A stretch of DNA of 64,000 nt from Thiopseudomonas denitrificans (GCF_002866065.1 NZ_LNJZ01000007.1:226388-290387); one strand, 5' to 3'; shown: positions 1,738-17,352, counted from the first letter of the stretch. Notes: generated from the letters alone by a model not told the origin. Numbers and translations are program-made.

Positions 1738-2469
1738 TTAAAACAACTCCGGCAAACTATCGAAAATGGTTAAAACCTGCATGAAGTCGTCACCAGGCGG
1801 GCATTGCAGCTGTAACCGTTCACCCGTCACCGGATGATCAAACGCCAGCATCGTGGCCGCCAGCATCAGCCGTGATAAGCCGAAGCGTTCGGCAAAGTAC
1901 TGGTTGTGTCTGGTGCGGCCATAGCTGGTATCGCCAATGATCGGATGCGCAATGTGCTGCATGTGGCGGCGCAGCTGGTGCTTGCGACCGGTGAGCGGGT
2001 GCAGCTCCAGCAGGCTGTAACGGCTGTGCGGGTAACCCTCGACCTGCACGGGAATTTCCACCGTTTTTAGTCGCCGAAAACGGGTGCTGGCTTCACGAAC
2101 CGGCAGCGTCTCATCTTTAAGGCGCTTGTCGGTGGCGTGCTCGCGCAGTGCATGGTCAATCTCGCCCTGCTCCACTGGCCAGCCACGCACCAGCGCCAGA
2201 TAGGTTTTGCGCACCTTGCCATCCATCATCTGCCTGCCAAAGGCGCTGGCGCTATCGGCATCACGGGCAAACAGCAACAGCCCGGAGGTAGGCCGGTCCA
2301 GCCGGTGACAGGGGAACACATGCGCGCCACCGTTAAGTTCGCGGGCATACTGCAGGGCAAACTCGGTGGCGTGACGATCAATCGGGCTGCGGTGTACCAG
2401 CAAACCGGCGGGCTTGTGTACCGCCAGCAGCCAGGGGTCGCGGTAGAGTTCGGTGAGGGGGTTGGGCAT
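1738..2469 (-). CDS. truC: tRNA pseudouridine(65) synthase TruC
   Basis: 243 residues, RluA-family. TruC modifies U65 in the T-stem region of some tRNAs. The HRLDRPTSG motif is at about 55-63 with catalytic Asp58 (Asp54 in E. coli TruC), and a LHPLTGRKHQLRRH segment follows near 170. The lack of an N-terminal S4 domain and the short length separate it from RluA/RluC/RluD. Its ATG overlaps the stop of hsdM by one base (TAATG), so this housekeeping gene is now the last cistron behind the restriction-modification island and is probably translated by re-initiation, unless it has a promoter inside hsdM. Confidence 0.9.
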   Translation of the reverse strand: MPNPLTELYRDPWLLAVHKPAGLLVHRSPIDRHATEFALQYARELNGGAHVFPCHRLDRPTSGLLLFARDADSASAFGRQMMDGKVRKTYLALVRGWPVEQGEIDHALREHATDKRLKDETLPVREASTRFRRLKTVEIPVQVEGYPHSRYSLLELHPLTGRKHQLRRHMQHIAHPIIGDTSYGRTRHNQYFAERFGLSRLMLAATMLAFDHPVTGERLQLQCPPGDDFMQVLTIFDSLPELF

Positions 2470-3938
2470 TACAATCTGGCCAACACCGCCCGAAAGCTTT
2501 CCAGCCCGGCTTCCATGTTTTCGATGATCTCTTCTGCCAGCTCGTCCGGTTCGGGCAGGTTTTCCAGATCGGTCAAGCTTTTGTCCCGCAGCCAGAACAC
2601 ATCCAGACTGGTCTTGTCACGCGCCATCAGCTCGTCAAACGAATAACAGCGCCAGCGGCCATCGGGATTGGTATCGGCATCCCAGCTCGCCACACGCTGA
2701 GCGGGGTTGTCCGGGTTGTAGCACTGGATGAAGTCCTGCAAATCCTCAAAACGCAGCGGCTTGCGCTTGAGCGTGTGGTGAATGTTGGTGCGGTAATCGT
2801 AATACCAGACCTGTTTGGTCCATGGCTCGGGGCTGGCCGGCTGGTTATCGAAAAACAGCACGTTGGCTTTAACGCCCTGTGCGTAAAAAATGCCCGTCGG
2901 CAAACGTAAGATGGTATGCAGGTTGGTGCTTTCCAGCAGTTTTTTGCGGATGGTTTCCCCAGCTCCGCCTTCAAACAGCACGTTGTCCGGCACCACCACG
3001 GCGGCCTTGCCGGTGGTTTTCAGCATGCTGCGAATGTGTTGCACAAAATTGAGCTGTTTGTTGGAGGTGGTCGCCCAGAAGTCCTGCCGGTTATAGGTCA
3101 GATCGTCGCTTTCCTGCTCGCCTTCTTCGTTGGTAAAGCTCATCGAGCTTTTCTTGCCGAACGGCGGATTCGCCAGCACATAGTCCACACTGAGCGGGCT
3201 GGGCGCAATCAGCGCATCATTGGGCGAAATCAGGCTGTCGCCGTCCATCTCGCCGATGTTGTGCAAAAACATGTTCATCAGGCACAAGCGGCGGGTATTG
3301 GCAACAATCTCGTTGCCATAAAAAGTGCTGTTTTTCAGGAACAGCTTTTGCTCCCTGTCCAGCCGTTGCGCAGTCAGATAATCATAGGCCGCCAGAAAAA
3401 AACCACCCGTGCCGCAGGCCGGATCGGCAATGGTCTTGCCCGGCTGCGGGCGCACACATTCCACCATCGCCTGAATCAGCGGACGCGGGGTGAAATACTG
3501 TCCGGCTCCGGATTTGGTGTCCTCGGCGTTTTTCTCCAGCAGCCCTTCATAAATATCGCCTTTGACATCAGCGCCCAGCAACAGCCAGTTGGCATCGTCG
3601 ATCATGTCAATCAGCCGGTAGAGCTTGGCCGGGTCCTGAATCTTGTTTTGCGCCTTGGTAAAAATCTGCCCCAGCATGCCCTTGCGCCTGCCCAGCTCGC
3701 GCAGGATTTCCACATAGAGCATTTCCAGCGAAGCACCCTTGCTGTCTTTCAGCGCCTGCCACGAATATTGTGGCGGAATGCCCATATCGCGGCTATAGGG
3801 CGGTTTGCTGTATTCATCCGCCATTTTCAGGAAGATCAGATAGGTGAGCTGCTCCAGATAATCACCATACCCCACCCCGTCATCACGCAGGGTGGTACAG
3901 AAACTCCAGACACGGGAAACAATGGATGATGCGTTCAT
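2469..3938 (-). CDS. hsdM: Type I restriction-modification methylase HsdM
   Basis: 489 residues. HsdM transfers methyl from SAM to N6 of adenine in the bipartite site recognised by HsdS; M2S1 is the methylase and R2M2S1 the restriction enzyme. An HsdM_N helical domain (about 1-140) precedes the N6-methylase fold. The SAM motif DPACGTGGF is at 172-180 and the catalytic NPPF at 257-260, both intact, so it should be active. It is the last defence gene, about 2.2 kb downstream of hsdS with abiEi/abiEii and a gene remnant between. The 138-base gap to abiEii may carry its own promoter. It overlaps truC by one base. Confidence 0.95.
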   Translation of the reverse strand: MNASSIVSRVWSFCTTLRDDGVGYGDYLEQLTYLIFLKMADEYSKPPYSRDMGIPPQYSWQALKDSKGASLEMLYVEILRELGRRKGMLGQIFTKAQNKIQDPAKLYRLIDMIDDANWLLLGADVKGDIYEGLLEKNAEDTKSGAGQYFTPRPLIQAMVECVRPQPGKTIADPACGTGGFFLAAYDYLTAQRLDREQKLFLKNSTFYGNEIVANTRRLCLMNMFLHNIGEMDGDSLISPNDALIAPSPLSVDYVLANPPFGKKSSMSFTNEEGEQESDDLTYNRQDFWATTSNKQLNFVQHIRSMLKTTGKAAVVVPDNVLFEGGAGETIRKKLLESTNLHTILRLPTGIFYAQGVKANVLFFDNQPASPEPWTKQVWYYDYRTNIHHTLKRKPLRFEDLQDFIQCYNPDNPAQRVASWDADTNPDGRWRCYSFDELMARDKTSLDVFWLRDKSLTDLENLPEPDELAEEIIENMEAGLESFRAVLARL

Positions 3939-4076
3939 AAATAACCTAAAGACAAAGCCAGCAAATTTTCAGTTAACCACAGCTTTTGCGGATACTGGTT
4001 ACAGATATACATACAATAATTTCGTGTAACTTACGATGCGGTCTTAAGGTACACGAAAAACTCGGAGAAACTCGCA

Positions 4077-4967
4077 TTAGCCCTGAAACTTTATTCGCCG
4101 GATAATTTCCATAAAAAATTCGGGCGACCATACTTGCAGCTCTCTGGCATCACGGATAAAGGGCAGCACATCCGCCTTGGCCTTGTCGATATCCAGACTG
4201 GCGATACGCTGCTCCAGCAAGCCCAGCACGGCATCGCCAGTCAGTTGCGCAGGCAAGGCTATCTTTTGATTCTCCAGAAACGTGCAGCTTTGAGCCAGTC
4301 GTGCCTGTAAATGCACCAGATCCAGCGGGGTTCTTCTGGACACATACCAAACCAGATCGTACCAGTCCCGGCCTTTGGGGCGATTACCCCATGCCCGACA
4401 CAAAACAGCGTGCATTTTTCCAGCAAACAAACAAGGCATGGTAAAGGTCTTGATGCTGTGCGAGCGCGGCACCAGGCTGATGACCTCTTCCGTCTGAAAA
4501 TTGGGCGGTGGGTCTGTATCCACTTCCAGCTTGATTTTTACCGCCTGCCCTTTGTGAATGCCTTGGGTCATCTCTGCTGGTGCTTCGATTGCCAGCAGAT
4601 GCTCCAGCGTATTGCCCTTGATAAAGGCAGAAGCTACCGCGCTGGCACTATTCTTCTGTTTAATTTCTACACTTACAGTAAAACCATAGGCTTGCAGCGT
4701 ATCAATAATGGCTTGCCGGAACGGGGTAATATCAAAATCTGGCTGTGATTCAAGCAGGGAAAAATCCAGATCTTCAGAAAACCTCGGCAAACGATGCAAA
4801 ACCCGCAGTGCCGTGCCGCCGTAAAAAGCCGCTTGCCTGAAAAAACCGGCATCATAAAGTGCAACCAGAACAACCTCTTGCAAAATTTCACGCAATGCAT
4901 AAAAACCCGAGCTGGCGTTGCTTAAATCGTAGCGGCCAAGCATTTGGGTTATGGCTGGATGGGTCAT
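4077..4967 (-). CDS. abiEii: AbiEii-family nucleotidyltransferase toxin
   Basis: 296 residues. AbiEii/AbiGii toxins are nucleotidyltransferases that arrest growth, notably during phage infection, and are countered by AbiEi without stable protein contact (type IV toxin-antitoxin). Visible motifs are FYGGTALR (GGT at 50-52, Arg55) and RFSEDLDF with Asp66/Asp68, the nucleotide- and metal-binding residues. A later GKMHAVLCR-WGNRPKGRDWYDL segment is typical of the family. The ATG overlaps the abiEi stop by four bases (ATGA), so the pair is translationally coupled with the antitoxin first. All catalytic residues look intact. Confidence 0.9.
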   Translation of the reverse strand: MTHPAITQMLGRYDLSNASSGFYALREILQEVVLVALYDAGFFRQAAFYGGTALRVLHRLPRFSEDLDFSLLESQPDFDITPFRQAIIDTLQAYGFTVSVEIKQKNSASAVASAFIKGNTLEHLLAIEAPAEMTQGIHKGQAVKIKLEVDTDPPPNFQTEEVISLVPRSHSIKTFTMPCLFAGKMHAVLCRAWGNRPKGRDWYDLVWYVSRRTPLDLVHLQARLAQSCTFLENQKIALPAQLTGDAVLGLLEQRIASLDIDKAKADVLPFIRDARELQVWSPEFFMEIIRRIKFQG

Positions 4968-5602
4968 GGGGTCATTCTCTCTATTACGCTGGCCAATGTG
5001 GCCAGATTCCTGGAGCGGTACGCTTCGGCAATGGTTTTTATCAGCTCAACATTCATGTTTTCCGGCAAATCGGCGCGCATATCATCTAGCAGATAATCAC
5101 GCATATCCCGCTGCGACAGCGTACCGAGCCTCCTGTGATAACGAATTTTGTCACACAGCGCCTTCTCGACCGTGGCGACAAAAATACCGCCCTCAACCCG
5201 GTCAAAACGCCAGTCAACGCCCAGCGAATAGGCTTGCAACGGGATTTTTTTGTAGCTGAAGCGCCCCACCGGAGTCTCGTAGTACTTGTCATTGCGCGTG
5301 GTTGCCGAAGTCATTTCATACACTGCTTCCGGAATGATCCCGTGAAAGCTTAGCGCATACTCAAAAGACAGGTAGGAAGGCGCATACAAGCCGCCGGCAA
5401 TCGCTTTCAAGTCAAGAAGATGCTTTCGGTAGGCCGGCGCAAAGCAGTAAAAGCCTTTTTTCAGACGAATCAAATCACCCGCCCTGACCAGGCTGGCAAT
5501 TTTATTGTTGATGTTGCTCACCGTTCCCGCCAGGCGACTGCTGAGCATCTCGTGCGAGATCAGCGAAATGGGCAACTGGTTGGCAAGCTCGATGGTTTTC
5601 AC
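4964..5602 (-). CDS. abiEi: AbiEi-family antitoxin / transcriptional regulator
   Basis: 212 residues from a GTG start; no in-frame ATG lies upstream before a stop. AbiEi proteins neutralise AbiEii and repress their own promoter through an N-terminal winged helix. Residues 1-50 look like that helix (a short HTH ending in LIRLKKGFYCF), and the C-terminal region has the AbiEi pattern LYAPSYLSFEYALSFHGIIPE followed by a beta-rich domain. It is coupled to abiEii by an ATGA overlap. An inverted repeat lies 20-40 bases upstream of its start, a plausible self-binding site. Confidence 0.85.
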   Translation of the reverse strand: MKTIELANQLPISLISHEMLSSRLAGTVSNINNKIASLVRAGDLIRLKKGFYCFAPAYRKHLLDLKAIAGGLYAPSYLSFEYALSFHGIIPEAVYEMTSATTRNDKYYETPVGRFSYKKIPLQAYSLGVDWRFDRVEGGIFVATVEKALCDKIRYHRRLGTLSQRDMRDYLLDDMRADLPENMNVELIKTIAEAYRSRNLATLASVIERMTP

Positions 5603-5621
5603 TGGCGCTTTTCACCATGAG

Positions 5622-5642
5622 TAATACTGGATAAGAGTATTA
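5622..5642. promoter_or_regulatory. Inverted repeat in the abiEi promoter region
   Basis: TAATACT at 5622-5628 and AGTATTA at 5636-5642 form a 7-bp inverted repeat with a 7-base spacer, 20 bases upstream of the abiEi GTG. On the minus strand an AT-rich TATAGATAAT stretch overlaps its outer edge and could supply a -10. AbiEi proteins are known to repress by binding inverted repeats upstream of their gene; assignment of this repeat is inference. Confidence 0.5.
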
Positions 5643-5684
5643 TCTATACCAGACTATGGGTGTGCAAGCAAAAATAAGGCGCTA

Positions 5685-5988
5685 TCACAGGGCTGTCAGC
5701 AACTGCCTGCCCAGAGCGGTCAGGCGGTATTTTTGGGTTGGGCTGCGGGGTGCGTCTGGCTGGGTCATTTCGATCAGGCCAGCGTCTAACGCCGGGTTCA
5801 GATAGTTTTCTAAAAAAGTCGCCCTGTGTCTCAAGCTGACCGCTTGCATAAGCTCCTTGGTGCTTACCCCCATATCTTAACGAGGAAAGCAGTTTTTTTA
5901 CTTGTTCGGTTACTTGTTCAGCTACTTGTTCGGCTACTTGTTCGGTTACTTGGTGGGCTACTTGGTGGGTTACTTGGTGGGGGCTTGG
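5685..5988 (-). pseudogene. Remnant of an AlbA_2/Schlafen-type ATP-binding protein (C-terminal part)
   Basis: Two adjacent minus-strand frames together resemble the C-terminus of the AlbA_2/HATPase-4 proteins often found inside type I restriction loci: a tandem (T/A)(E/H)QV linker, then KKLLSSL, then a winged helix (STKELMQAV...LENYLNPALDAGLIEMTQPDAPRSPTQKYRLT, given here in parts). The linker frame and the winged-helix frame differ by one base. Removing one G from the five-G run (C5867-C5871 on the plus strand) would fuse them as LRYGVSTKEL. Upstream of the linker the frame hits a stop at 5989-5991 and no AlbA or ATPase domain is present, so the gene is truncated as well as frameshifted. A 62-residue open frame (5685-5873) could still be made but has no obvious start signal. 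Confidence 0.75.
5900..5983. repeat. Seven 12-bp tandem repeats
   Basis: Seven consecutive 12-bp units starting ACTTG(T/G)T(C/G)GG(C/T)T, four of one subtype then three of another. On the minus strand each unit encodes (T/A)-(E/H)-Q-V, matching the repetitive linker of the remnant gene. It is therefore a coding repeat, not a CRISPR or intergenic satellite. Repeat number probably varies between strains. Confidence 0.85.
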
Positions 5989-6060
5989 TTAGCTCACTGA
6001 ACGCCCTGTTTCTAACTAAGCCAAGGAAAACTGCGAGTTAAAATGAAAATAATAGCGCCC

Positions 6061-6095
6061 CTTGCAAATCCACTTTTGAAAAGTGAATTTGCAAG
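6061..6095. repeat. 17-bp inverted repeat downstream of hsdS
   Basis: Arms 6061-6077 and 6079-6095 pair over 17 bp with one mismatch around a single central base. It lies 36 bases past the hsdS stop in the direction of transcription. There is no U-tract after it, so it is not a standard intrinsic terminator. It could protect or end the hsdR-hsdS message, or mark an old insertion junction next to the decayed gene. Confidence 0.7.
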
Positions 6096-6130
6096 AAAGG
6101 CAGGGCAAGCCCAAGTTCTGCAACAATTAA

Positions 6131-7603
6131 CTAAACAAGTCTTCCCGAGAATGCTTTTTTCAGGATTGACTGACGCAACAACTCGACCTTGGCTAACGCC
6201 GCTTCGATTTCTTTTTCGTTTTGCTCAATTATGGATAGTTTTTCTTCGAGCTGATTAACTATTTCTTGTTGCTCAGCGAACGAACAATAAGGAAGTGAAT
6301 ACTCTGCAAGCCTTGTTTGATTAATAAAAGGTATATTTACACCTCTTAGTTCATTTTTTAGCTTACTCGTAAAGTGAGAGCTTTGAAGAAAATATAAAAA
6401 ATATTTAGAAATTGAATAATTATTAAAGCTAAACTTTCCCACGCGCTGATAAAGAATAGAAGGACAGTCTTGCTTTCCAAGAATTGCAACTTTAAGCGAA
6501 TCACCGAGCATAGGGCGATTTAAAGCCATAACTAGATCACCCTCTTCTAGAATCAAGTTTTGATACATATCTTTAAAGTTTTCTGGCAGGTATGCCGTGC
6601 TTTCCCATATAGTTTTTCCGAAGCCAACATTTGCTATTTGAAATAATCGAACTCCAGACTCTGAGTAGTCTGACTTTTTAAATGCGAAACCAGAAAGCAT
6701 TTCATAAAATGAACCGAAGCGGTGCCAGATCCAACTATCAGGTATCGGTGCCAGCTCAGATATTTCATTCAAAGAGAGCGGTTCCGTATTTTTAAACTTT
6801 GCAGGTTTCCTAGGAATTCTACCTTCCTTTCCTTGCGCTTCCCAGTCTTTTACTGCTTGCTGCCATTTTTCAAGCTGCTGCTGATAACGGGCTTCACGTT
6901 CTTGCTGGATACGGGCAAGCAGTTGCTCAGGGTTTTCCAGCTTATCGGGGTTATCTTTACGCCATTGTTCGGTGAGTTTGCCTTCAAAGGCATGTTTGAG
7001 TAGAGATTGGCGGTAAATTTTTAGCTGTTCTTGAGTCGTCTTTAAGCTAGCAATGCCGCTGTCTAGCTCACTAAATAACTCTTCTATTTTAGTAACTATT
7101 TTCTCTTGAGCACTCAAAGAGGGAATGGCAATTAATGCATTCTGCAAATATTGAGCTGGGACACGTCTTTGCCCAACGGCTCCCGTCATATTGTGTTCTG
7201 CATCTGAACGAAACTGTTTAGAAGACACAACATAGTAAATATATTTTGCCAGAACGTCTTTATTGACTCGTATGACATGGAACTCGGTCGAGCCAAATCC
7301 GACTCCGTTTTTGAGCCTTGGAACAACCGCCATCTTTCCGTTTTCCATGCAAGGCGTTATTTTGGCGAACAGCACATCATTTTCAACAAACCCCGTATAT
7401 CCTTTTTTTACTTCAATAAAATTACGACTTTCAGAAACATCAATCTTGCCACTTTCTGCTTCAACTGCTGCCATCGGCACAAATGAAACTTCTGTTTCAT
7501 CGTCAATCGCACTCTTATCGAGCCTTGGATTAATACTGGCAATTTCACCAAGGGGTTTAAGCTTCCACCCTTCAGGTAACTGCTGATTTATTTGCTCTTG
7601 CAC
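6131..7603 (-). CDS. hsdS: Type I restriction-modification specificity subunit HsdS
   Basis: 490 residues. HsdS reads the bipartite DNA target and holds the two HsdM and two HsdR subunits. The layout is TRD1 (about 1-170), a central helical spacer (170-270, with KIEELFSELDSGIASL and a charged Gln/Glu-rich coil), TRD2 (about 275-430) and a second conserved helix (440-490) ending LLRQSILKKAFSGRLV, the usual HsdS finish. The DNA of both TRDs is visibly AT-rich, most strongly TRD2 (about 6240-6720), while the spacer is close to genome composition, the usual trace of TRD exchange. It follows hsdR after a 239-base gap holding a long inverted repeat. Confidence 0.95.
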   Translation of the reverse strand: MQEQINQQLPEGWKLKPLGEIASINPRLDKSAIDDETEVSFVPMAAVEAESGKIDVSESRNFIEVKKGYTGFVENDVLFAKITPCMENGKMAVVPRLKNGVGFGSTEFHVIRVNKDVLAKYIYYVVSSKQFRSDAEHNMTGAVGQRRVPAQYLQNALIAIPSLSAQEKIVTKIEELFSELDSGIASLKTTQEQLKIYRQSLLKHAFEGKLTEQWRKDNPDKLENPEQLLARIQQEREARYQQQLEKWQQAVKDWEAQGKEGRIPRKPAKFKNTEPLSLNEISELAPIPDSWIWHRFGSFYEMLSGFAFKKSDYSESGVRLFQIANVGFGKTIWESTAYLPENFKDMYQNLILEEGDLVMALNRPMLGDSLKVAILGKQDCPSILYQRVGKFSFNNYSISKYFLYFLQSSHFTSKLKNELRGVNIPFINQTRLAEYSLPYCSFAEQQEIVNQLEEKLSIIEQNEKEIEAALAKVELLRQSILKKAFSGRLV

Positions 7604-7669
7604 TCTTTTTCGCCTTGTCAGTACGTAATTCTTAATCTACAACCCAAAACACATCTCAGCCTATACACC

Positions 7670-7697
7670 GCGACAGCAGCCCGGCACAGCCGGGCCA
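7670..7697. repeat. Dispersed 28-bp repeat, copy 1
   Basis: This 28-bp stretch containing GACAGCAGCCCGGC and the small palindrome CCCGGC-N-GCCGGG recurs at 43715-43742 with 27 of 28 bases identical. Both copies sit just past the 3' end of a minus-strand gene or between two such genes, and both have a further GC-rich hairpin on one side. Confidence 0.75.
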
Positions 7698-7724
7698 TTC
7701 CCCCCAACCAGCACGTGGCATGAC

Positions 7725-7820
7725 GGGGTGCAGGCAAGGCCGGAGCAAAGCATCAGCACCTGTGCCGAAGCTCGCTTCGGTGCGGGTGCGTAGCTTTGCG
7801 CAGCGCCTTGCCCGCACCCC
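7725..7820. repeat. 96-bp imperfect inverted repeat between hsdR and hsdS
   Basis: Outer arms 7725-7740 and 7805-7820 pair over 16 bp with one mismatch. Inside, GCAAAGC pairs with GCTTTGC, and the centre (about 7757-7790) folds again as GTGCCGAAG-CTCG-CTTCGGTGC. The whole forms one long near-continuous hairpin in the hsdR-hsdS intergenic region. It could be a miniature transposable element, an mRNA stabiliser separating hsdR from hsdS, or a partial terminator. I see no U-tract. A short open frame across it (7661-7846) is not credible as a gene. Confidence 0.75.
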
Positions 7821-7842
7821 ACAACCACAGCGCAAAAAATCA

Positions 7843-10659
7843 TCAAGCCACCAGCCCCTTATTCATCTCCGCAATCACCCAGTCCATCCTGTCGCCAAAC
7901 AACTGATACATCCTGCCCAGCCCGCCCTGCGCATCAAAAGGCGATATCTCCAGATCATCGCGCTGAAAATGGCAAGAAATCATGATCTGGTCACGAATCA
8001 TATGCAGCCAGGCCAGTTGCTCCTCACTGAATTTTTCTTCCGCACTGTTGTTGTGCTGGAAAATCCAGGTTTTAAAGTTGCGCTGCACAGTGCTGGCAAA
8101 GGTGGTGATGCTGGAATCCAGCCCGGTGACGCGGCGGATCAGCGCCACCAGTGCAGTCAGCTCTGAAAGCGGGCTGGCCGGCGTTTGCACCTGATCCAGA
8201 TGCTCATACGCCTGCCACACCCGTAGCGGAGCCAGCTTGGGGCGATCCTGTTTCAGTTTTTCCAGCAGTTGCTTGAGCTGTTGGTAAGTAACTTCGCTGC
8301 GCCGTGCCGGAGTCTGGAAATAAATGCTCAGGGCGTTGATTTCGTCCTGGTGTTCGCGCAGGTAATCGGCAAACTCCAGGGTCAGGGCTTCGGCGTTGCT
8401 CTGACTGTCGCCTGCCCATTCGGCCTTGGTGAGCTGGTCGAGGTCGTCATGGACGATGGTTTGTTCCTTGTCACGGCGGATGCTGTCGATCAGCTCGATC
8501 AGTTCGCCGTTGAACACTCTGGCCACTTCGCCCACCAGTTGTTGCTGTGCCTGCTGGCGAACTTGATCGCCGGGGTCACTGCCGGCTGGCTGGCCGCTGA
8601 TGGCAAGGGCGCGTTCTTCCACACGGTCGCCATCAATGGCGTTGAACAGTTCACCGACAATATTAAGCAGCGGCACACCACCGGCTTTTGCGGCTATGCG
8701 GGCGCGTTCCTTGTCGTCCAGTTGTTTGTCCAGCCGCGCCAGTCGTCCGGCCAGCGAGGAAACGGTATCGGTATCACTGACTCCCAGCATCACGCCCATG
8801 GCGAGGTCTTTCAGCGCCACGCTGGGCTTGCTAATCAGCGGCTGGCTGGCGGTTTTCAGCGATTTGGTCACACCAATGGCATCCACAATCACAAAGTGTG
8901 TTTTGGCGCTGGTGGCGGACGGGCTGACTTTTTGCAGGCTGTCTTTGTCCAGGGTGCGGGTGCCGCGTCCTTTCATCTGCTCGAAGTAGTTACGGCTTTT
9001 TACGTCGCGCATGAACAGCAGGCATTCCAGCGCCTTGACATCGGTGCCGGTAGCAATCATGTCCACGGTGACGGCAATGCGTGGGTAGTAGTCGTTGCGT
9101 AGCTGGTTAAGGATGGATTTGGGGTCTTCGCCTTTTTCCAGCAACTGGCCGTCGGCGCTGGTTTTGTCCTGGGCGACGCGGTAGGTGACTTTTTTGCAGA
9201 ACTGGTTGCTCTCGCCAAACTCTTCGCGCACGGTCTGAATGATGTCGTCGGCGTGGCTGTCGGTTTTGGCGAAAATCAGGGTTTTGGGGATTTCCTTTCG
9301 GCCCGGGAAGATGGTCGGCAGGCTGTCCCGGAACGCACGGATCACGGTACGGATCTGGTCGGGGTTGACGATATCGCGGTCGAGCTGTTTGGCGGTGTAG
9401 GCTTCGTCTTCGTCCTGGGTTTCCCAGCGTTTTTTGCGGGTCTGGCGTTCGCGACGCTCGACCAGCAGATCGGCATTGATGGTGCCGCCTTTGGTGGTTT
9501 TTTCGGTTTCGATGATGAAGACTTCGTGGCCGACGTTGACGCCGTCAGCAACTGCCTGCTCATGGCTGTATTCGCTAATCAGGTTCTTGCGGAAAAATCC
9601 GTAAGTGCGCTGGTCCGGCGTGGCGGTCAGGCCGACCAGATAGGCATCGAAGTATTCCAGTACCTGCCGCCACAGGTTGTAAATGGAGCGGTGGCATTCG
9701 TCGATGATGATGACATCGAAAAACTCCGGTGGCAGTTTGGGGTTGTACACCACCGGCAGCGGTTCTCTGGGTTTGGTGTATTGCTCGGCGGGGTTGTGTT
9801 CTTCCAGGGCTTCATCCAGCGGTTCGTCCTTGAGGATGGAGTACATGCGCTGGATGGTGCTGATATAGACCTGCGAGTCGGTGGGTACGTGGGGGCTTTT
9901 CAGGCGCTGCACCCCGTACAGCTCACCAAACTTGCGGTTGTCGTCGTTGGGCAGGAAGCTGAGAAATTCCTGCTCGGCCTGTTCGCCGAGGTTTTTGGTA
10001 TCGACCAGAAACAGGATGCGGCTGGCGTTGACCGGCTCTTTCAGCAGGCGGTAGCTGGCGGTGATGGCAGTAAAGGTTTTGCCGGCACCGGTGGCCATCT
10101 GGATCAGTGCGCGGGGTTTGTCCTGCTTGAGCGAGGCTTCCAGACTGGCGATCGCGGTGCTCTGACATGTGCGCAGGCCGGTCGGGTCAAGTGCTGGCAA
10201 GTCTTGCAGGCGGCCACGCAGGGTTTTGTCCTGCATCAGCCAGTACGCCAGGGTTTCCGGGCGGTGGAAGCTGAAGATTTCCCGCGAGCGCGGGCTGGGG
10301 TCGGCATTGTCGGTAAAGCGTGTGATTACACCGGTGCTTTCATAGACAAAACGCAGCGCCTGCTGGTTGTTGATGTATTTTAGCCGTGCCTGTGCGTAGC
10401 CCTGGGACTGGTCTTCTACCGTGGTGATCTTGTCGCCCCAACTTTCCGGTTTGGCTTCGATTACGCCAACCGCTTGGCGGTCAACAAACAGCACATAGTC
10501 TGCCGGACCAACATCGGTCTGAAATTCGCGCACCGCAATACCGGTTGCAGCGGACGGATTCATCTGTCGGAAATTTTGCACAGCCCAGCCTGCATCACGC
10601 AGCATCTGGTCGATACGGTCGCGGGCCTGTTGTTCGGGGTGCTGATTGGGCGCTGACAT
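7843..10659 (-). CDS. hsdR: Type I restriction endonuclease subunit HsdR
   Basis: 938 residues. HsdR translocates DNA with ATP and cuts it away from unmethylated sites. The N-terminal PD-(D/E)xK nuclease has Asp54 and Glu68-x-Lys70. Walker A (MATGAGKT) is at 188-195, DECH at 320-323, the LTATP motif near 345, and a helicase C domain with TGTDVKALECLLFMR follows. The C-terminal ~230 residues are the EcoEI-type R-subunit domain, so this is closer to the EcoEI (type IB) group than to EcoKI. The ATG is preceded by GGAAG/AGGA. All catalytic motifs are intact. It is followed by hsdS, and its upstream region has a promoter with the -10 inside a palindrome. Confidence 0.96.
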   Translation of the reverse strand: MSAPNQHPEQQARDRIDQMLRDAGWAVQNFRQMNPSAATGIAVREFQTDVGPADYVLFVDRQAVGVIEAKPESWGDKITTVEDQSQGYAQARLKYINNQQALRFVYESTGVITRFTDNADPSPRSREIFSFHRPETLAYWLMQDKTLRGRLQDLPALDPTGLRTCQSTAIASLEASLKQDKPRALIQMATGAGKTFTAITASYRLLKEPVNASRILFLVDTKNLGEQAEQEFLSFLPNDDNRKFGELYGVQRLKSPHVPTDSQVYISTIQRMYSILKDEPLDEALEEHNPAEQYTKPREPLPVVYNPKLPPEFFDVIIIDECHRSIYNLWRQVLEYFDAYLVGLTATPDQRTYGFFRKNLISEYSHEQAVADGVNVGHEVFIIETEKTTKGGTINADLLVERRERQTRKKRWETQDEDEAYTAKQLDRDIVNPDQIRTVIRAFRDSLPTIFPGRKEIPKTLIFAKTDSHADDIIQTVREEFGESNQFCKKVTYRVAQDKTSADGQLLEKGEDPKSILNQLRNDYYPRIAVTVDMIATGTDVKALECLLFMRDVKSRNYFEQMKGRGTRTLDKDSLQKVSPSATSAKTHFVIVDAIGVTKSLKTASQPLISKPSVALKDLAMGVMLGVSDTDTVSSLAGRLARLDKQLDDKERARIAAKAGGVPLLNIVGELFNAIDGDRVEERALAISGQPAGSDPGDQVRQQAQQQLVGEVARVFNGELIELIDSIRRDKEQTIVHDDLDQLTKAEWAGDSQSNAEALTLEFADYLREHQDEINALSIYFQTPARRSEVTYQQLKQLLEKLKQDRPKLAPLRVWQAYEHLDQVQTPASPLSELTALVALIRRVTGLDSSITTFASTVQRNFKTWIFQHNNSAEEKFSEEQLAWLHMIRDQIMISCHFQRDDLEISPFDAQGGLGRMYQLFGDRMDWVIAEMNKGLVA

Positions 10660-10682
10660 CCTGCTTCCTTTCTTGCATCTGA

Positions 10683-10704
10683 AAGTGTTTGATTATAAAC
10701 ACTT
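10683..10704 (-). promoter_or_regulatory. hsdR promoter with -10 inside a palindrome
   Basis: On the minus strand a perfect TATAAT (10697-10692) lies in the centre of an 8-bp inverted repeat, AAGTGTTT (10683-10690) and AAACACTT (10697-10704). This is 24-45 bases upstream of the hsdR ATG. No good -35 is visible. A repressor binding the palindrome would block the -10. HipB, AbiEi or an unlinked controller are possible; none is shown. Confidence 0.55.
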
Positions 10705-10754
10705 GAAAGCGAAGTAACAGCGAACTGTTTTGAGTGATGATTCTGTGCTGCCTG

Positions 10755-11012
10755 TTACCCCCGCACCAGTCCGATCCGCATACCAAAGAGGCCAAACACT
10801 GCATTGAGCGTGGCCAGGGTTGGATTGCCTTCGTCCTGCTCCAGTTGGCGCAGCGAGCGCAGGGAGATTTTGCACATACGGGCAAAGCGTTCTTGCTGCA
10901 GGCCGGTGATTTCCTTGCGTAGTCGCAGGGTTGCCTGCCCGAAAGTCAGCTCGCCGCTGGCCTGTAGCCGGGCAATTTCGTCCAGCAGCTGTTTGCGTTG
11001 GTCGATGTCCAT
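10755..11012 (-). CDS. hipB: HipB-like Xre-family antitoxin/repressor
   Basis: 85 residues from the ATG at 11012. The ATG overlaps the hipA stop by one base (TAATG) and has GGGGG about 8 bases upstream; a longer reading from 11027 would overlap hipA more and has no better signal. An N-terminal helical stretch of ~35 residues precedes an Xre/Cro HTH (about 40-72: ERFARMCKISLRSLRQLEQ). Such proteins neutralise HipA kinase and repress the operon. Unlike E. coli hipBA, the antitoxin gene is second here. The binding site is probably among the repeats upstream of hipA. Confidence 0.83.
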   Translation of the reverse strand: MDIDQRKQLLDEIARLQASGELTFGQATLRLRKEITGLQQERFARMCKISLRSLRQLEQDEGNPTLATLNAVFGLFGMRIGLVRG

Positions 11013-12331
11013 TACAGCAGCCCCCAATCAGTCAGGCGTTTAGGTAGCTGTGCCAGTGCGATGCGTGGATGATTCATGGTGACTAGCGGTAAACCAAGGT
11101 CAGTCAATAAATCCGGCAGCGCTAGAAACTCTTGCGCTGCATGGCGTAGGCGTTGGTACAGCTGCTCTGTATCTGTCCAGTCTCCGGCCAGCTGACAGGC
11201 GGCTAACCAATCAACCTGCCCGCCCTGCTCGACCGGCTTTGGCCATTTGGTGGTGCGGGTAATGCCCTCATCGTCCATCACCATGGGCGCAAGGTCATAG
11301 ATGGGTGCCAGCTCGATTCCACTTTCTGTGCGCAATACGGCAAGGTTACGCCCGTGGTTGTCGCTGTTGCCGAGAATTTGATTGAGCAGGTCACGGCGCA
11401 GGTATTCAAATACGAGCTCGTCCACTTGATCCTGCTGGCCAGCGCTACGCCACAACTCAACCAGGCATTTCAGCGCATCGGTATGTTGCATGTAAGCGCC
11501 GGGCTGATTGACTTGCGCCAGTGAATACATGGACTCAACCGCACGGCGCTGCACGCCCGCGGCGGTAACGGCTCGGTCAAAACGGTGCATCCACAGGCTG
11601 GGCTTGTGCGCTTCTTCCAGTGTCATGCCCTGGGTGGTCACTGTGTTTAAGCCTATCTGGCTTACTGCCTGGTAATAACAGTACTCGCTGCGCAGAATAT
11701 CTTGGTCGCGCGCGCTGGCTTTGTTGCGGGCAAACTTTACAAACCAGTGTTGCACGGCCTGCGTATCTTCTAGGGCAGCGTCAGGATGCAACCTGCCTTG
11801 CGTATCTTCGGTGAGCAGCAGCTTGGGTGCCTCACCGCCCGCGCCGGTAGCGCCACCAATTGCCGCGCCCAGCTCGTAGGCATATTCCAGAAAGCTAGCC
11901 TCGCGCTGCACTACATCTTGACGGCTAAAGCCCGCATGTGCCACAGGCTCCTGGACTGCTTCTTTGATGCGCAGGTTACCTATTGGCGCTGCCGTATAAC
12001 GGGACAGCAGATACAGGTCCAGATGGATATCTTGGGGCCTTTGTGTAGCTAACCTGGCTAACAAAAAACGCCTGGCTGCTCCCGCCGGCAAAATATCCAG
12101 CAAAAAAGCCGGTGCATGCTCCAGGTGCCAAGCATCCCAGCTGAGCGGGTAGTTAGCGCTAACTGCCAAGCCAAGACGGGTTTGTAAGGCTTCAAGATGC
12201 TCAACCAGGTAATCTGACTGATAGGCCAAATTGCAGCGCCCAGCCAAGCCCAATTCGGGCTGCTGAACGCTTAGGCGGGCGGCATCATGCCAAACTCCCT
12301 GGTGATAAAGCTGCAAGGTCAGTGGCTGCAT
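11012..12331 (-). CDS. hipA: HipA-family serine/threonine kinase toxin
   Basis: 439 residues. HipA kinases phosphorylate a translation factor (GltX in E. coli) and cause growth arrest and persistence. A HipA N-subdomain (about 1-125) is followed by the kinase. GGEAPKLLL (165-173) is the nucleotide loop, Lys199 in HWFVKF the likely ATP lysine, NSDNHGRN (322-329) the catalytic loop with Asp324, and YDLAPM (345-350) the metal-binding DLAP. All key residues are present, so an active kinase is expected. No ribosome-binding site is visible, and a TATAAT just upstream would give a leader of only about ten bases. Confidence 0.88.
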   Translation of the reverse strand: MQPLTLQLYHQGVWHDAARLSVQQPELGLAGRCNLAYQSDYLVEHLEALQTRLGLAVSANYPLSWDAWHLEHAPAFLLDILPAGAARRFLLARLATQRPQDIHLDLYLLSRYTAAPIGNLRIKEAVQEPVAHAGFSRQDVVQREASFLEYAYELGAAIGGATGAGGEAPKLLLTEDTQGRLHPDAALEDTQAVQHWFVKFARNKASARDQDILRSEYCYYQAVSQIGLNTVTTQGMTLEEAHKPSLWMHRFDRAVTAAGVQRRAVESMYSLAQVNQPGAYMQHTDALKCLVELWRSAGQQDQVDELVFEYLRRDLLNQILGNSDNHGRNLAVLRTESGIELAPIYDLAPMVMDDEGITRTTKWPKPVEQGGQVDWLAACQLAGDWTDTEQLYQRLRHAAQEFLALPDLLTDLGLPLVTMNHPRIALAQLPKRLTDWGLL

Positions 12332-12335
12332 AAAA

Positions 12336-12413
12336 GCACCATAAGGGCATTATAGTGCCGATAACTATAGTGCTTTTGGCTTTTTTAGGCAATAAAGTGC
12401 CGAAAGCTTTATT
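12336..12413 (-). promoter_or_regulatory. hipA promoter and candidate HipB operators
   Basis: TATAGTGC occurs at 12351-12358 and 12366-12373, and an inverted partial copy GCACCATA at 12336-12343. On the minus strand a perfect TATAAT (12354-12349) overlaps one repeat. Further upstream AATAAAG (12391-12397) and CTTTATT (12407-12413) form another inverted repeat around a GTGCC. This fits an operon repressed by a DNA-binding antitoxin such as HipB; which repeat is bound is unknown. Confidence 0.55.
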
Positions 12414-12416
12414 GCT

Positions 12417-12593
12417 GTGCGAATAAATTCGCACCTACGAGCGGGCTGGTCCCGCTAGAGCATGCACCTGTCGCAGGGCGAGCCTGCTCCTACAGTGTTC
12501 TGTCCGAATAAATTCGGACCTACAGTGATGCAATCCGTAGCCCGCACAGCAGGGTTTGATGAACGCTTTATGTAGGTGCGAATTTATTCGCAC
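12417..12593. repeat. REP cluster between rlmL and hipA
   Basis: The 318-base gap 12332-12649 holds the hipA promoter and then three 18-bp REP palindromes: 12417-12434 (GTGCGAAT arms), 12502-12519 (GTCCGAAT arms) and 12576-12593 (GTGCGAAT arms). The first two have the flank CCTAC on the right, the third GTAGG on the left, so they are in opposite orientation. Between them, at about 12470-12496, is a second Pseudomonas REP type (CTGTCGCAGGGCGAGCCTGC). No coding signal is seen from 12435 to 12649. Confidence 0.85.
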
Positions 12594-12649
12594 ACAGGCT
12601 TCAACCTCAGAGCATCAAAAACAGGCAGGACAACGCCTAAAATTGCCGA

Positions 12650-14866
12650 TTAGTCGTTATTTTCAGCTTTAGAATGACGAATCCGCCACGCCCTGTGGAT
12701 CTTCTGGTTACGGGCAAAGTCCTGGTCAATGGTTTGCGCACTGATTTCTTCAATGGCGTAACGCTCGGCCAGCTCCGGTTCCAGCTCGAATTTGCGGAAG
12801 TTGTTGGAGAAGTACAGCGTGCCGTCTTTGGCCAGCAGGCGCATGGCTTCGTTGATTAGCGTGCGCTGGTCGCGCTGCACGTCGAACACATCCTGCATGC
12901 GCTTGGAGTTGGAGAAGGTGGGCGGGTCGATAAAAATCAGGTCGTATTCACCCTGCTCCTTGGCCAGCCACTGCATGACATCGGTCTGCACCAGCTGGTT
13001 CTTCTCGGAAAAGCCGTTCAGCGACAGATTACGCCGTGCCCAGTCGAGGTAGGTTTTCGACAGATCCACGCTGGTAGTAGTACGCGCACCACCGGCGGCA
13101 GCATGCACCGTGGCAACGCCGGTGTAGCAGAACAGGTTGAGAAAGCGCTTGCCACGGGCTTCACTGGCAATGCGCAAGCGCAGCGGGCGGTGGTCGAGGA
13201 ACAGGCCGGTATCCAGATAGTCGGTCAGGTTGACCAGCAGCTTGACGTTGCCTTCACGCACTTCCATAAACTCGCCCTTGCTGGCCTGGCGCTCGTACTG
13301 GCTCAGGCCGCTCTGGCGTTCGCGGCGTTTGACCACCACCTTGTCGGGCGATACGCCCAGCGCCGACGGAATCGCCGCCAGCACATCCAGCAGGCGCGAT
13401 TGCGCCTTGTCGGCATCCACCGATTTGGGCGCGGCATATTCCTGCACATGCACCCAATCACCGTAAATGTCGATGGCCACGGCATATTCGGGCATGTCGG
13501 CATCGTACAGGCGATAACACTGAATCTCGTTCTGGCGCAGCCATTTGCCCAGTTGCTTGCGATTCTTTTGCAGGCGGTTGGCGAACATTTGTGCGCCATT
13601 GGACAGCATGGCCGGGGCTTCGGCTTTGGCGGTTTCGTTGCCGGACTGCTGGCGGGCAGCGCCCTGTTCCGGCTCACGGGCGGTAACAAAGCTTTGCTCC
13701 TGCACATCGAACATCAGCAATTTGCAGGGAATCGCGCCGTTGAAGAAGGAATACTGCTTCTGGCTGCGGATGCCCATGCGCTTGCACAATTGCGGCGCAC
13801 CGGTGAACACGCCAGCCTGCCAGCCTTGCAACTGGCCACGCATGCGCTCGCCCAGATGCTGATAAAGGTACAGCAGGCTGGCTTCGTCACCCAACCGCTC
13901 GCCATAGGGCGGGTTACAAATCATCAGGCCGGGCTGGCCGTGATCGGGGCTGGGCGCATAGGTGGCCAGTTCGCCCTGGTAAACCTTGACCCAGTCGCTC
14001 AAACCGGCGCGGGCAATATTGTTGCGGGCGGGCTGCATCAGGCGCGGATCGGCTTCGTAGCCGCGAATCCACAGCGGTTCTTGCTGCAAGCCTTTTTCGG
14101 CGCGCTGCTCGGCTTCGTCCAGCAGGCGATTCCAGATAGACGGCACATGCCCCTGCCAACCCTGGAAGCCCCAGTATTCACGGCGCAGGCCGGGCGCTAC
14201 ATCGGCGGCCATCAGTGCGCCTTCAATCAAAAAGGTGCCCATGCCGCACATGGGGTCGCTGAGGGCATAACCCTGTTTGGCCAGCTCCGGCCAGTTGGCG
14301 CGCAGCAAAATGGCGGCGGCCAAGTTTTCTTTTAAAGGTGCCGCGCCCTGCTGCAAGCGGTAGCCACGCTGGTGCAGGCTGGTACCGGACAAATCCAGCG
14401 CCACGGTAATCTCGTCACGGCGCAAATGGACGTTGACGCGCAGATCGGGATTGCGCTTTTCCACGGTTGGGCGGTTGCCCATGCGGTCACGCAGCGCATC
14501 GACAATCGCATCTTTGACCTTGAGCGCGCCAAAGTGACTGTTGTCGATGGCCTTGCTGGTGCCGGAAAAATCAATTGCCAGCGTGCTTTTGCTGTCCAGA
14601 TGGTCGCGCCAGTCGATGCTTTGAATGGCGGCATACAGCTCGTCGGCGGTACGTACCGGGTAGCGGCCAAGCACCAGCAATACGCGGTTGGCCAGCCGTG
14701 ACCAGAGGCACAGGCGGTAGGCAGTTTCCAGTGTGCCGCGTCCGCTAACCAGCGCCGGACGCTGGCGCGCCTGCTCCAGCCCCAGCGCCTGCGCTTCGGT
14801 GAGCAGCAGTTCTTCCAGGCTTTTCGGGCAGCTAAGGTGAAGTTCAAGCAGATTGTCGTCGGACAT
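12650..14866 (-). CDS. rlmL: 23S rRNA methyltransferase RlmL/RlmK fusion
   Basis: 738 residues from the ATG at 14866; an apparent N-terminal extension in the same frame is encoded by the neighbouring REP sequence and is not real. The protein makes m2G2445 and m7G2069 in 23S rRNA. A THUMP domain (about 45-155) is followed by the RlmL methylase with DPMCGMG at 204-210 and catalytic NPPY at 318-321. The C-terminal RlmK methylase has LFCYTGVATVHAA near 578 and DPPTFS at 647-652. Both halves are intact. It is flanked by REP elements on both sides, which suggests a monocistronic unit. Confidence 0.95.
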   Translation of the reverse strand: MSDDNLLELHLSCPKSLEELLLTEAQALGLEQARQRPALVSGRGTLETAYRLCLWSRLANRVLLVLGRYPVRTADELYAAIQSIDWRDHLDSKSTLAIDFSGTSKAIDNSHFGALKVKDAIVDALRDRMGNRPTVEKRNPDLRVNVHLRRDEITVALDLSGTSLHQRGYRLQQGAAPLKENLAAAILLRANWPELAKQGYALSDPMCGMGTFLIEGALMAADVAPGLRREYWGFQGWQGHVPSIWNRLLDEAEQRAEKGLQQEPLWIRGYEADPRLMQPARNNIARAGLSDWVKVYQGELATYAPSPDHGQPGLMICNPPYGERLGDEASLLYLYQHLGERMRGQLQGWQAGVFTGAPQLCKRMGIRSQKQYSFFNGAIPCKLLMFDVQEQSFVTAREPEQGAARQQSGNETAKAEAPAMLSNGAQMFANRLQKNRKQLGKWLRQNEIQCYRLYDADMPEYAVAIDIYGDWVHVQEYAAPKSVDADKAQSRLLDVLAAIPSALGVSPDKVVVKRRERQSGLSQYERQASKGEFMEVREGNVKLLVNLTDYLDTGLFLDHRPLRLRIASEARGKRFLNLFCYTGVATVHAAAGGARTTTSVDLSKTYLDWARRNLSLNGFSEKNQLVQTDVMQWLAKEQGEYDLIFIDPPTFSNSKRMQDVFDVQRDQRTLINEAMRLLAKDGTLYFSNNFRKFELEPELAERYAIEEISAQTIDQDFARNQKIHRAWRIRHSKAENND

Positions 14867-14910
14867 GAAACAGGGATCTCGAAAAAATAAAAATGTAGGT
14901 CCGGGTTGAA

Positions 14911-15013
14911 CCTGTAGGTGCGAATTTATTCGCACATAACCCCCATATTCACGCAACGAAGCGGAGCCACAGGGTGACGATGGCGCATGTGTGCGAATGA
15001 ATTCGCACCTACA
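14911..15013. repeat. Inverted REP pair (REPIN) between pyrD and rlmL
   Basis: Two REP palindromes, 14918-14935 and 14991-15008, face each other as TGTAGGTGCG... and ...CGCACCTACA, separated by about 55 bases. This is the arrangement known as a REPIN, a mobile unit moved by an unlinked RAYT transposase. The right-hand flank CTACA supplies the stop codon of pyrD (CTA at 15009-15011). The order rlmL-rmf-pyrD is usual in Pseudomonas; here the gap is too short for rmf. Confidence 0.85.
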
Positions 15014-16025
15014 GAGCGGCGATGGCATCCACCGACTCGCGGATCAGCGCCGGGCCCTTGTACAAAAAGCCGGAATAAATCTGCACCAGGCTGGCACCGG
15101 CCTCGATTTTCTCTGCCGCATGCTTGCCTTCGGTAATGCCGCCCACTGCGATGATCGGCAAACGGCCCTGCAGGGTTTCGGCCAGCACCCGCACCACATG
15201 GGTGCTCTGCTCGCGTACCGGCGCACCCGACAGCCCACCGGCCTCGTCCGCATGCTGCATGCCTTCCACACCCGCGCGGGACAGGGTGGTGTTGGTAGCA
15301 ATCACGCCGTCCATGCCACAGCCAAGGATGATGTGTGCAACCTGTGCAACTTCTTCATCGGTCATGTCCGGTGCAATCTTGACCGCAATCGGCACACGCC
15401 TGCCGTGCATTTCGGTCAGGTCTTCCTGACGCTGCTGCAGGGCGCTCAGCAGTTCTTTCAGCGAGTCGCCATATTGCAGACTGCGCAGGCCCGGGGTGTT
15501 GGGCGAACTGATGTTGACAGTGATATAGCTGGCGCTGGTGTAAACCTTGTCCAGACAGTACAGATAGTCGTCGGTAGCCTGCTCAACCGGAGTAGCCAGG
15601 TTCTTGCCAATATTGATGCCCAGCACGCCGTCAAATTTGGCGTTGCGCACCCGATCCAGCAGGTAGTCGACACCACGGTTGTTGAACCCCATGCGATTGA
15701 TTACGCCTTCGGCCTGCGGCAGGCGGAAGATGCGCGGCTTGGGATTGCCCGGCTGCGGGCGTGGCGTGATGGTACCGATCTCGATGAAGCCGAAGCCCAG
15801 ATCGGACAGGCCGCGGATGGCATCGCCGTTCTTGTCCAGACCGGCAGCCAAACCTACCGGATTGGGAAAATCAATGCCCATGACATTGACCGGCACGGCA
15901 GCCGGCTGGCGCACCGCCAGCTTGCTCAACCCCAGGCGACCGGCAGCGCCGAGCAGGTCAAGCGACAGGTCATGGGCGGTTTCTGGCGACAGGGAAAACA
16001 ACAGCGGGCGGGCAAGTCTATACAT
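15009..16025 (-). CDS. pyrD: Dihydroorotate dehydrogenase (quinone), class 2
   Basis: 338 residues from the ATG at 16025 (MYRLARPLL, the usual Pseudomonas start; a TTG nine bases upstream is less likely). PyrD oxidises dihydroorotate to orotate with FMN and passes electrons to ubiquinone at the inner membrane. The N-terminal amphipathic membrane segment, [13 protein letters not shown] near 57, NISSPNT with the catalytic-region Ser near 178, and the FMN-binding VGGI...A.EKI...GAS.VQIYSGF end are all visible. The stop codon is formed by the flank of a REP element, so the C-terminus may differ by a few residues from relatives. Confidence 0.95.
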
Positions 16026-16066
16026 GGCAATCAACGGCGTTAAATTAAAAGCGCAAGTATAGCCGA

Positions 16067-16288
16067 TTACGCCAGCCGTCGCAGTGAAATGAACTTGCCT
16101 TGCGCATCAAACGTCAGCTCGAAACTGCCATAAATTCCCTCATGGGTAAGGAACGGTTGCAGGCGTCCCGCCGGCAGGCTGACCGACTTGCCTTCACGGC
16201 TGCGCAGCAGCACGCGGTTGGCCGTTCCCTGGTAGACCCGCAAAAACTCGTCTGCGGGCAGATCAATCTCAAGATGTAATTTCAACAT
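16067..16288 (-). CDS. DUF2835 family protein
   Basis: 73 residues from the ATG at 16288; earlier in-frame starts (ATG 16309, TTG 16315) add a few residues without a better ribosome site. The pattern [32 protein letters not shown] and [19 protein letters not shown] matches my memory of DUF2835, a small conserved proteobacterial family of unknown function. No signal peptide or membrane segment. It lies 41 bases upstream of pyrD on the same strand and may be co-transcribed with it. Confidence 0.75.
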
Positions 16289-16384
16289 GGCCAAATTTTC
16301 ACAAAACATGCACAATACGACCGGTGTTCAAGATATGTCGTGCTGGTCGCCAGCAGCAGTCAAGGTTTCCGGATTTCCAACAAA

Positions 16385-17242
16385 ATGAGCCAGTCTTCGG
16401 TTTTGGGCAACCTGTTCAACTCGGTTTTCAAACGCAAGGGGCAGCAGCCGGATTTTGGCTCTGACGATGTGGCTCGCAAGGTGCGCCTGGAATTTCCGCA
16501 ACCGCTGCTGCCGGAACCAAGCATACACTGGAAACATACGTTACACCTGCAGCAGCTGGCCAATCTGCCGGCCAGCGCACTGTCCGGACCGGTACAGGAA
16601 GACAAGGCTGCGGCCTATCGCTTCATCAGCAAAATTGTCAGCATCAGGACAGAAACTGTCACTTCTTTTGACATGCGCGGCCTGTTCGGTCTGAACCACG
16701 AACAGGACGATCTGCTGGCCTGTAACAGTTGGGAAGCCCTCGCCCAGTCCGGCCAATGCCGCAACATACGCATCATCAGCATTCGCGATTTCAACCGCGT
16801 CCTGTCGATAGCCATCGGCAAGAGCCAGAGTGTCAACCTGCTGTCGACCGCATGGGAGCCCCGGAAAACTTACTGGGCCGACCCGCAAAACACCTGCGAG
16901 CTGGCAGCCTCCCTGGTCTATGCCCGCCGCCGTGAATTGCCGATCAATCTTCCGGCCCAGCTGTATCGCACCCACATCAATGCCGGCGCAATCCGCGAGC
17001 TGAAGAAGCATTATCACACCCTGGGCATGCCGGTCGCCGCCTGGACAGACCCGGCCTTCATGAATTACCTGGTAACCCACAAGGTACCCTACGCCCGCCT
17101 GCCCCTGTCTCTGGGCAGTCTCTCGTTGCAAACCATTTTGTTGCCACGCAGCAGCCCGCTGGCCAATACCTTTGGCAACGGCCTGCGCCAGGCTGGTGCC
17201 CATGAGCTGAGTGACTTTCTACTGACACTGACTCAGGCCTGA
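16385..17242 (+). CDS. Uncharacterised protein
   Basis: 285 residues from the ATG at 16385; an in-frame GTG at 16340 would add 15 residues. I do not recognise the family. It is soluble-looking: no signal peptide and no clear membrane segment. A basic N-terminus (VFKRKG) is followed by alternating helices and strands; notable patches are SFDMRGLFGLNHEQDDLL near 110-130, ELAASLVYARRRELPINLPAQLYRTHINAG near 190-215 and ELKKHYHTLGMPVAAWTDPAFMNYL. It is divergent from the DUF2835 gene and lies 110 bases before lexA. Composition matches its neighbours, so it looks vertically inherited. Confidence 0.75.
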   Translation: MSQSSVLGNLFNSVFKRKGQQPDFGSDDVARKVRLEFPQPLLPEPSIHWKHTLHLQQLANLPASALSGPVQEDKAAAYRFISKIVSIRTETVTSFDMRGLFGLNHEQDDLLACNSWEALAQSGQCRNIRIISIRDFNRVLSIAIGKSQSVNLLSTAWEPRKTYWADPQNTCELAASLVYARRRELPINLPAQLYRTHINAGAIRELKKHYHTLGMPVAAWTDPAFMNYLVTHKVPYARLPLSLGSLSLQTILLPRSSPLANTFGNGLRQAGAHELSDFLLTLTQA

Positions 17243-17306
17243 ACATCCCCGCATCCACCTGCAACAGCAATCCGCTGCAGTTTTAGCGCTTGCATATCCG
17301 GAAACA

Positions 17307-17342
17307 CTGTATACAATGCCAGTGTACTGTATAAAATCACAG
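17307..17342 (+). promoter_or_regulatory. Two LexA (SOS) boxes upstream of lexA
   Basis: CTGT-N8-ACAG is perfect at 17327-17342, and CTGT-N8-CCAG with one mismatch is at 17307-17322, exactly 20 bases upstream on the same helix face. They lie 11-46 bases before the lexA ATG. Tandem boxes on lexA itself are known in gammaproteobacteria and give tight autorepression. The sulA gene follows in the same unit. Confidence 0.92.
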
Positions 17343-17352
17343 GTATTCCGGC

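Follow-up and report, generated by a model that had tools for sequence, protein, structure and literature searches.

The window analysed here, a 64,000-nt stretch of Thiopseudomonas denitrificans DNA (GCF_002866065.1 NZ_LNJZ01000007.1:226388-290387), contains the genes of a type I restriction-modification (R-M) system with an AbiE toxin-antitoxin (TA) pair located between hsdS and hsdM. Seven intact open reading frames (ORFs) and one gene remnant lie on the minus strand in the order hipA-hipB-hsdR-hsdS-[ATPase remnant]-abiEi-abiEii-hsdM. Profile searches and motif inspection showed HsdR, HsdM and HsdS to be encoded together and to contain conserved motifs. An initial annotation, prepared from the sequence alone, had recognised that R-M and TA modules are combined here on one strand, the AbiE pair separating hsdS from hsdM; the profile searches found all the genes it named on that strand and at the coordinates it gave. 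From hsdR to hsdM the genes are the following:

7843..10659, minus strand: hsdR, type I restriction subunit, 938 aa (ResIII, E=1.4e-38; EcoEI_R_C, E=8e-36; HSDR_N)
6131..7603, minus strand: hsdS, specificity subunit, 490 aa, GTG start (two Methylase_S stretches, E=1.1e-23; PADLOC, E=2.7e-126)
5697..5970, minus strand: frameshifted C-terminal remnant of an SLFN_AlbA_2 ATPase (blastx to L012 8427-9995, frames 3 and 1)
4964..5602, minus strand: abiEi, antitoxin, 212 aa, GTG start (PADLOC AbiEi, E=2e-61; Pfam match below the cut-off)
4077..4967, minus strand: abiEii, nucleotidyltransferase toxin, 296 aa (PF08843, E=7.1e-29; PADLOC, E=1.4e-104)
2469..3938, minus strand: hsdM, N6-adenine methylase subunit, 489 aa (N6_Mtase, E=2.7e-73; HsdM_N; PADLOC MTase_I, E=4.1e-194)

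Motif inspection agreed with the earlier statement that HsdM, HsdR, AbiEii and HipA retain their catalytic motifs. HsdR keeps E-A-K, GAGKT, DECH and GRGTR, and HsdM keeps DPACGTGGF and NPPF. AbiEii is a DUF1814 nucleotidyltransferase (NTase) with motifs I-IV (GG, R62, SEDLDF, K184...R191, RDWYD), and HipA has SDNHGRN and YDLAP. The gap between hsdS and hsdM measures 2.2 kb, and hsdM overlaps the start of truC, a chromosomal gene, by one base (TAATG).

The position of hsdM had been described as displaced and the gene order as unusual. Gene order was compared across the 80 closest HsdM loci found in one-genome-per-species contigs (L006-L085), spread over Gamma-, Beta- and Alphaproteobacteria, Bacteroidetes, Verrucomicrobia, Chloroflexi and others. 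Of these loci, 51 allowed hsdR, hsdS and hsdM all to be located, and 66 allowed hsdS plus hsdM. The 51 relatives had hsdR, hsdS and hsdM in that order on a single strand. The hsdS-hsdM gap was at least 300 nt in 43 of them and at most 100 nt in the other eight, while hsdR and hsdS abutted or nearly so (gap of at most 100 nt) in 35; the median hsdS-hsdM gap for the 66 loci with both genes was close to 1.4 kb. Since a gap preceding hsdM is the usual state in this HsdM family, the methylase gene is not displaced, and synteny rules that idea out. The locus fits a subgroup, named here hsdR-hsdS-[slot]-hsdM, with the three genes on one strand and variable cargo before hsdM. In 27 loci among the relatives the cargo was translationally coupled to hsdS. 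Relatives of HsdM were also present on plasmids: the slot was empty in one from Vibrio and carried a DUF262 (GmrSD-type) protein in one from Gemmobacter, while in one from Methylomonas a VapC toxin was annotated immediately before hsdM, with no hsdS annotated nearby.

Pfam families among 86 slot proteins included HATPase_c_4 (14), SLFN_AlbA_2 (12), GmrSD_N and Fic (six each), RhuM (five), AAA_21 (four), and DarT, Macro, AbiEii and PIN (two each). The commonest cargo was AlbA_2 ATPases and not TA genes. DarT and Macro (DarTG) occurred within the slot of L022 and L053, and an AbiE pair within that of L006. The control set consisted of 103 genes, drawn from the two positions immediately following hsdM, with long and very short genes excluded. 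It contained one RhuM gene, and AlbA_2, Fic and GmrSD were absent from its families listed with at least two members. With the control count set to one, the maximum that the control listing permits, Fisher tests of slot versus control gave p values of 4e-4 for AlbA_2, 0.035 for Fic, 0.035 for GmrSD and 0.07 for RhuM, ignoring the relatedness of the loci. The hsdS-hsdM interval is, as this comparison indicates, a recurrent docking slot for anti-phage cargo in many phyla, the genes downstream of hsdM having no such defence bias.

Several individual occupants were recorded. The slot of L137 (G021; 9499-17826) extends for 8.3 kb before hsdM and contains a SIR2-like gene, a HerA-like gene, an unidentified gene, a subtilase and an AlbA_2 ATPase. 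Slot genes without a Pfam family were found at L051:8590-9369, L083:9156-9995, L140:9711-10496 and L017:6947-7846; three of these four follow an AAA_21 ATPase gene, as the second gene of a pair.

The dead AlbA-type ATPase reported in the initial annotation is real: it is a frameshifted C-terminal segment of about 90 residues at 5970-5697. The remnant shares 65% identity with residues 422-513 of a complete slot ATPase of 522 aa from Nitrosomonas (L012 8427-9995), which combines SLFN_AlbA_2, HATPase_c_4 and Fic-like_C domains. A 12-nt tandem repeat, seven-fold, lies inside the remnant at 5887-5994, just before the conserved C-terminal domain.

The abiEi gene is upstream of abiEii and overlaps it by 4 nt, forming an overlapping bicistron. 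Two putative control elements precede it:

5639..5666, minus strand: promoter-like site TGCACA-16-GATAAT, about 40 nt before abiEi (consensus match only)
5622..5642, minus strand: candidate AbiEi operator TAATACT-N7-AGTATTA, an inverted repeat overlapping the -10 box

A perfect inverted repeat with 7-bp arms like that of the candidate operator arose in 4.3% of shuffles. The promoter-like site and inverted repeat bear a suggestive resemblance to the mapped abiE promoter of S. agalactiae (PMC3985639).

The closest AbiEii proteins (58-62% identity) were found on plasmids of Arcobacter and Sulfurospirillum, with no hsd genes near these AbiE pairs. Within the same bacterial family, the genomes G073 (L006) and G111 (L008) do have an AbiE pair directly before hsdM (84% identical); records L126 and L127 duplicate L006 and L008, respectively, and the four were counted as two genomes. 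The AbiEii proteins of L006 and L008 are 80% identical to each other but only 25% identical to that of the window, and their AbiE is interpreted as a single independent arrival into the same slot, common to both. The AbiE lineage of the window was not found adjoining hsdM in other genomes, the other abiE-hsdM cases seen carrying a different lineage. Judged by the synteny check proposed in the initial annotation, the outcome is mixed: an abiE pair beside hsdM recurs, but with a far diverged AbiE lineage; because of this divergence it is the slot that recurs, not the pair, and abiE-hsdM was not found to be a conserved unit across genomes. Elsewhere in the same genome there is a second gene of the AbiEii family (G000:C3:207070-207882; E=2.1e-43).

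Two further structures interrupt the R-M genes:

7660..7840, minus strand: dispersed repeat (about 180 bp) with strong predicted folding, located between hsdR and hsdS (genome matches; fold)
6058..6098, minus strand: 19-pair hairpin after hsdS, a possible terminator with a weak T tract (hairpin search; fold)

The ~180-bp repeat breaks the usual abutment of hsdR and hsdS. It gives 34 matches in the genome of the window; two genus-mates have 34 and 39, and a third has one partial match. The predicted fold of 7604-7845 has an energy of -113 kcal/mol. An Rfam scan of the region gave nothing near threshold, and the repeat matches no Rfam family. Together, the promoter-like site, inverted repeat, hairpin and ~180-bp repeat point to a set of modules and not to a single tightly coupled operon.

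Regarding the history of the island, in one genus-mate (G001) rluB directly follows rlmL, with neither the island nor truC between them, and in two others (G002 and G003) rlmL is apart from truC-rluB. Because the island is missing between rlmL and rluB in G001, it is most simply, though tentatively, explained as a later insertion in the line of this genome.

On these data, the locus is likely to be a type I R-M operon of the form hsdR-hsdS-[slot]-hsdM that was gained by horizontal transfer and has a mobile AbiE abortive-infection pair plugged into its defence slot. This interpretation is favoured because of the gene order and gap in the 51 relatives, the defence-rich slot, the AlbA_2 remnant and the second AbiE lineage in the slot; also because the closest AbiE pairs are on plasmids, this AbiE shows the motifs and 4-nt overlap, and apparently the promoter layout (promoter-like site, inverted repeat), of the studied AbiE, and the island is absent between rlmL and rluB in G001. 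The slot would formerly have held an AlbA_2 ATPase, now a C-terminal stub, and would also have taken in the mobile AbiE pair. HsdR, HsdS and HsdM would act jointly as a normal restriction-modification enzyme, while AbiEi would repress its own promoter and neutralise AbiEii. Phage attack might upset the AbiEi/AbiEii balance, whereupon AbiEii would halt growth. Restriction would then act first, and AbiE would back it up as a second, abortive layer of defence. AbiE has been shown in general to act as an abortive defence (PMC3985639), and E. coli gains phage protection from an island whose type I system has DarTG2 embedded in it (PMC12255303). Some points weigh against this interpretation. Promoter-like matches across the region occur at chance level, the control genes were unmatched for phylogeny, and no close relative with the same locus was found for testing selection. 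Moreover, we infer expression, activity and the layered-defence role from sequence, and the layered-defence step leans by analogy on other systems (PMC3985639, PMC12255303).

Other interpretations differ in what they make of the bond between AbiE and the R-M genes. In the addiction unit proposed in the initial annotation, a cell losing the methylase, or the R-M operon as a whole, would pay for it through AbiE, and each partner would stabilise the other. AbiE can indeed stabilise plasmids (PMC3985639), HipAB can stabilise a genomic island (PMC8978831), and TA pairs recur in the slot. However, AlbA_2 ATPases are the more frequent cargo, the AbiE lineage of the window occurs elsewhere without hsd genes, and AbiE shows no link to hsdM in particular beyond its place in the island, where any TA pair would have the same effect. 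Also against this idea, the addictiveness of type I R-M enzymes is weak in itself, since restriction needs HsdM and HsdS. Given further the promoter-like site and overlapping inverted repeat of abiE, the hairpins or repeats between the modules, and the frequency of HipAB in the family without this R-M system (see below), the addiction unit is not supported and appears distinctly unlikely. It is conceivable, though doubtful, that the slot retains its cargo across phyla (TA pairs, AlbA_2 ATPases, GmrSD, SIR2-HerA) because cargo and methylase complex cooperate, the cargo serving, for instance, as a reserve triggered by a block of restriction; AbiE would then be one such coupled cargo.

A closer bond would exist if the type I enzyme directly held or sensed AbiEii and released it once a phage disabled restriction. 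Precedents are PrrC, whose gene lies inside a type IC operon and which the enzyme complex keeps silent (PMC3874165), and DarTG2, embedded in a type I operon (PMC12255303); the frequent translational coupling of cargo to hsdS in the relatives also agrees with this. Yet AbiE comes with an antitoxin, and probably also a promoter, of its own, abiE is here translationally coupled to neither hsdS nor hsdM, and the closest AbiE pairs work on plasmids with no hsd genes nearby. Such coupling is very unlikely, and because AbiEi is present, control of the PrrC type by the type I complex is not needed. Finally, the island could be a decaying relic that no longer works as a whole, repeats and hairpins having broken the coupling of hsdR, hsdS and hsdM. 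The dispersed repeat does part hsdR from hsdS, which abut in most relatives; there is a hairpin after hsdS, the ATPase is dead, and REP-type repeats lie upstream of hipA. Nevertheless, none of the seven ORFs is broken and the catalytic motifs inspected have been retained; decay is highly improbable.

The preferred reading, an R-M operon with AbiE in its slot, has parallels among known systems. The RptR-RMS-DarTG-M48 island of enteropathogenic E. coli likewise has a TA pair between type I R-M genes, and the authors considered the site a potential recombination hotspot for defence systems (PMC12255303). In the window, AbiE lies between hsdS and hsdM of an hsdR-hsdS-hsdM operon; DarTG, the cargo of the E. 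coli island, was also found in slots of the window type (L022, L053). EcoprrI similarly has a gene for a growth-stopping toxin inside a type I operon, although PrrC is an anticodon nuclease silenced by the enzyme complex itself, while AbiE has its own antitoxin (PMC3874165). The rloA/rloB genes of Campylobacter jejuni are likewise extra genes, with an unknown or defence-like role, inside an hsd locus, but, going by the order of locus tags, their place is between hsdR and hsdS, and neither is an AbiE gene (PMC2928727). The AbiE of S. agalactiae resembles that of the window in its 4-nt overlapping bicistron and NTase motifs I-IV and, suggestively, in a promoter-like site with an inverted repeat near the start; it differs in having two mapped inverted repeats, whereas the window has one perfect repeat and a pair embedded between hsdS and hsdM (PMC3985639). 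A search of the open-licence literature returned no paper on AbiE inside a type I operon. The locus is a new example of a known arrangement, TA cargo inside a type I operon, and not an oddity.

The cross-phylum cargo slot before hsdM is of more interest than the placement of AbiE. Since this HsdM family carries a standard cargo gap in front of hsdM, the earlier view of the methylase as displaced has to be revised. With several occupants lacking a Pfam match, the gap is a promising place to look for new anti-phage genes. Its occupants also form a natural series for distinguishing embedded toxins coupled to restriction from hitch-hiking ones.

Upstream of hsdR lies a second TA module:

11012..12331, minus strand: hipA, YjjJ-like HipA kinase toxin, 439 aa (HipA_C, E=3.9e-30; YjjJ model, E=4.3e-16, below the cut-off)
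10755..11027, minus strand: hipB, helix-turn-helix antitoxin overlapping the 3′ end of hipA (HTH_3, E=6.9e-6; couple_hipB, E=5.1e-9, below the cut-off)

Here hipA precedes hipB. No hipA was found at the other HsdM loci (L006-L085), and among 399 genomes of the bacterial family, 106 had HipA relatives (E<1e-60) but only seven had HsdM of the window type (E<1e-150). Membership of HipAB in the R-M unit was ruled out on these two grounds, and HipAB is probably a common, separate TA module that neighbours the R-M operon without belonging to it. A hipA-hipB pair (61% and 55% identical) in a different genus of the family adjoins a convergent abiE pair (45%) at L128 (G036; 5877-9035), where no hsd gene was found; this shows that the predicted HipAB and AbiE modules both circulate in the family. 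Upstream of hipA, positions 12416-12594 contain REP-like palindromes (TGTGCGAATAAATTCGCACCTAC) with 166 matches in the same genome and none to four in the genus-mates; they were apparently amplified recently in this genome.
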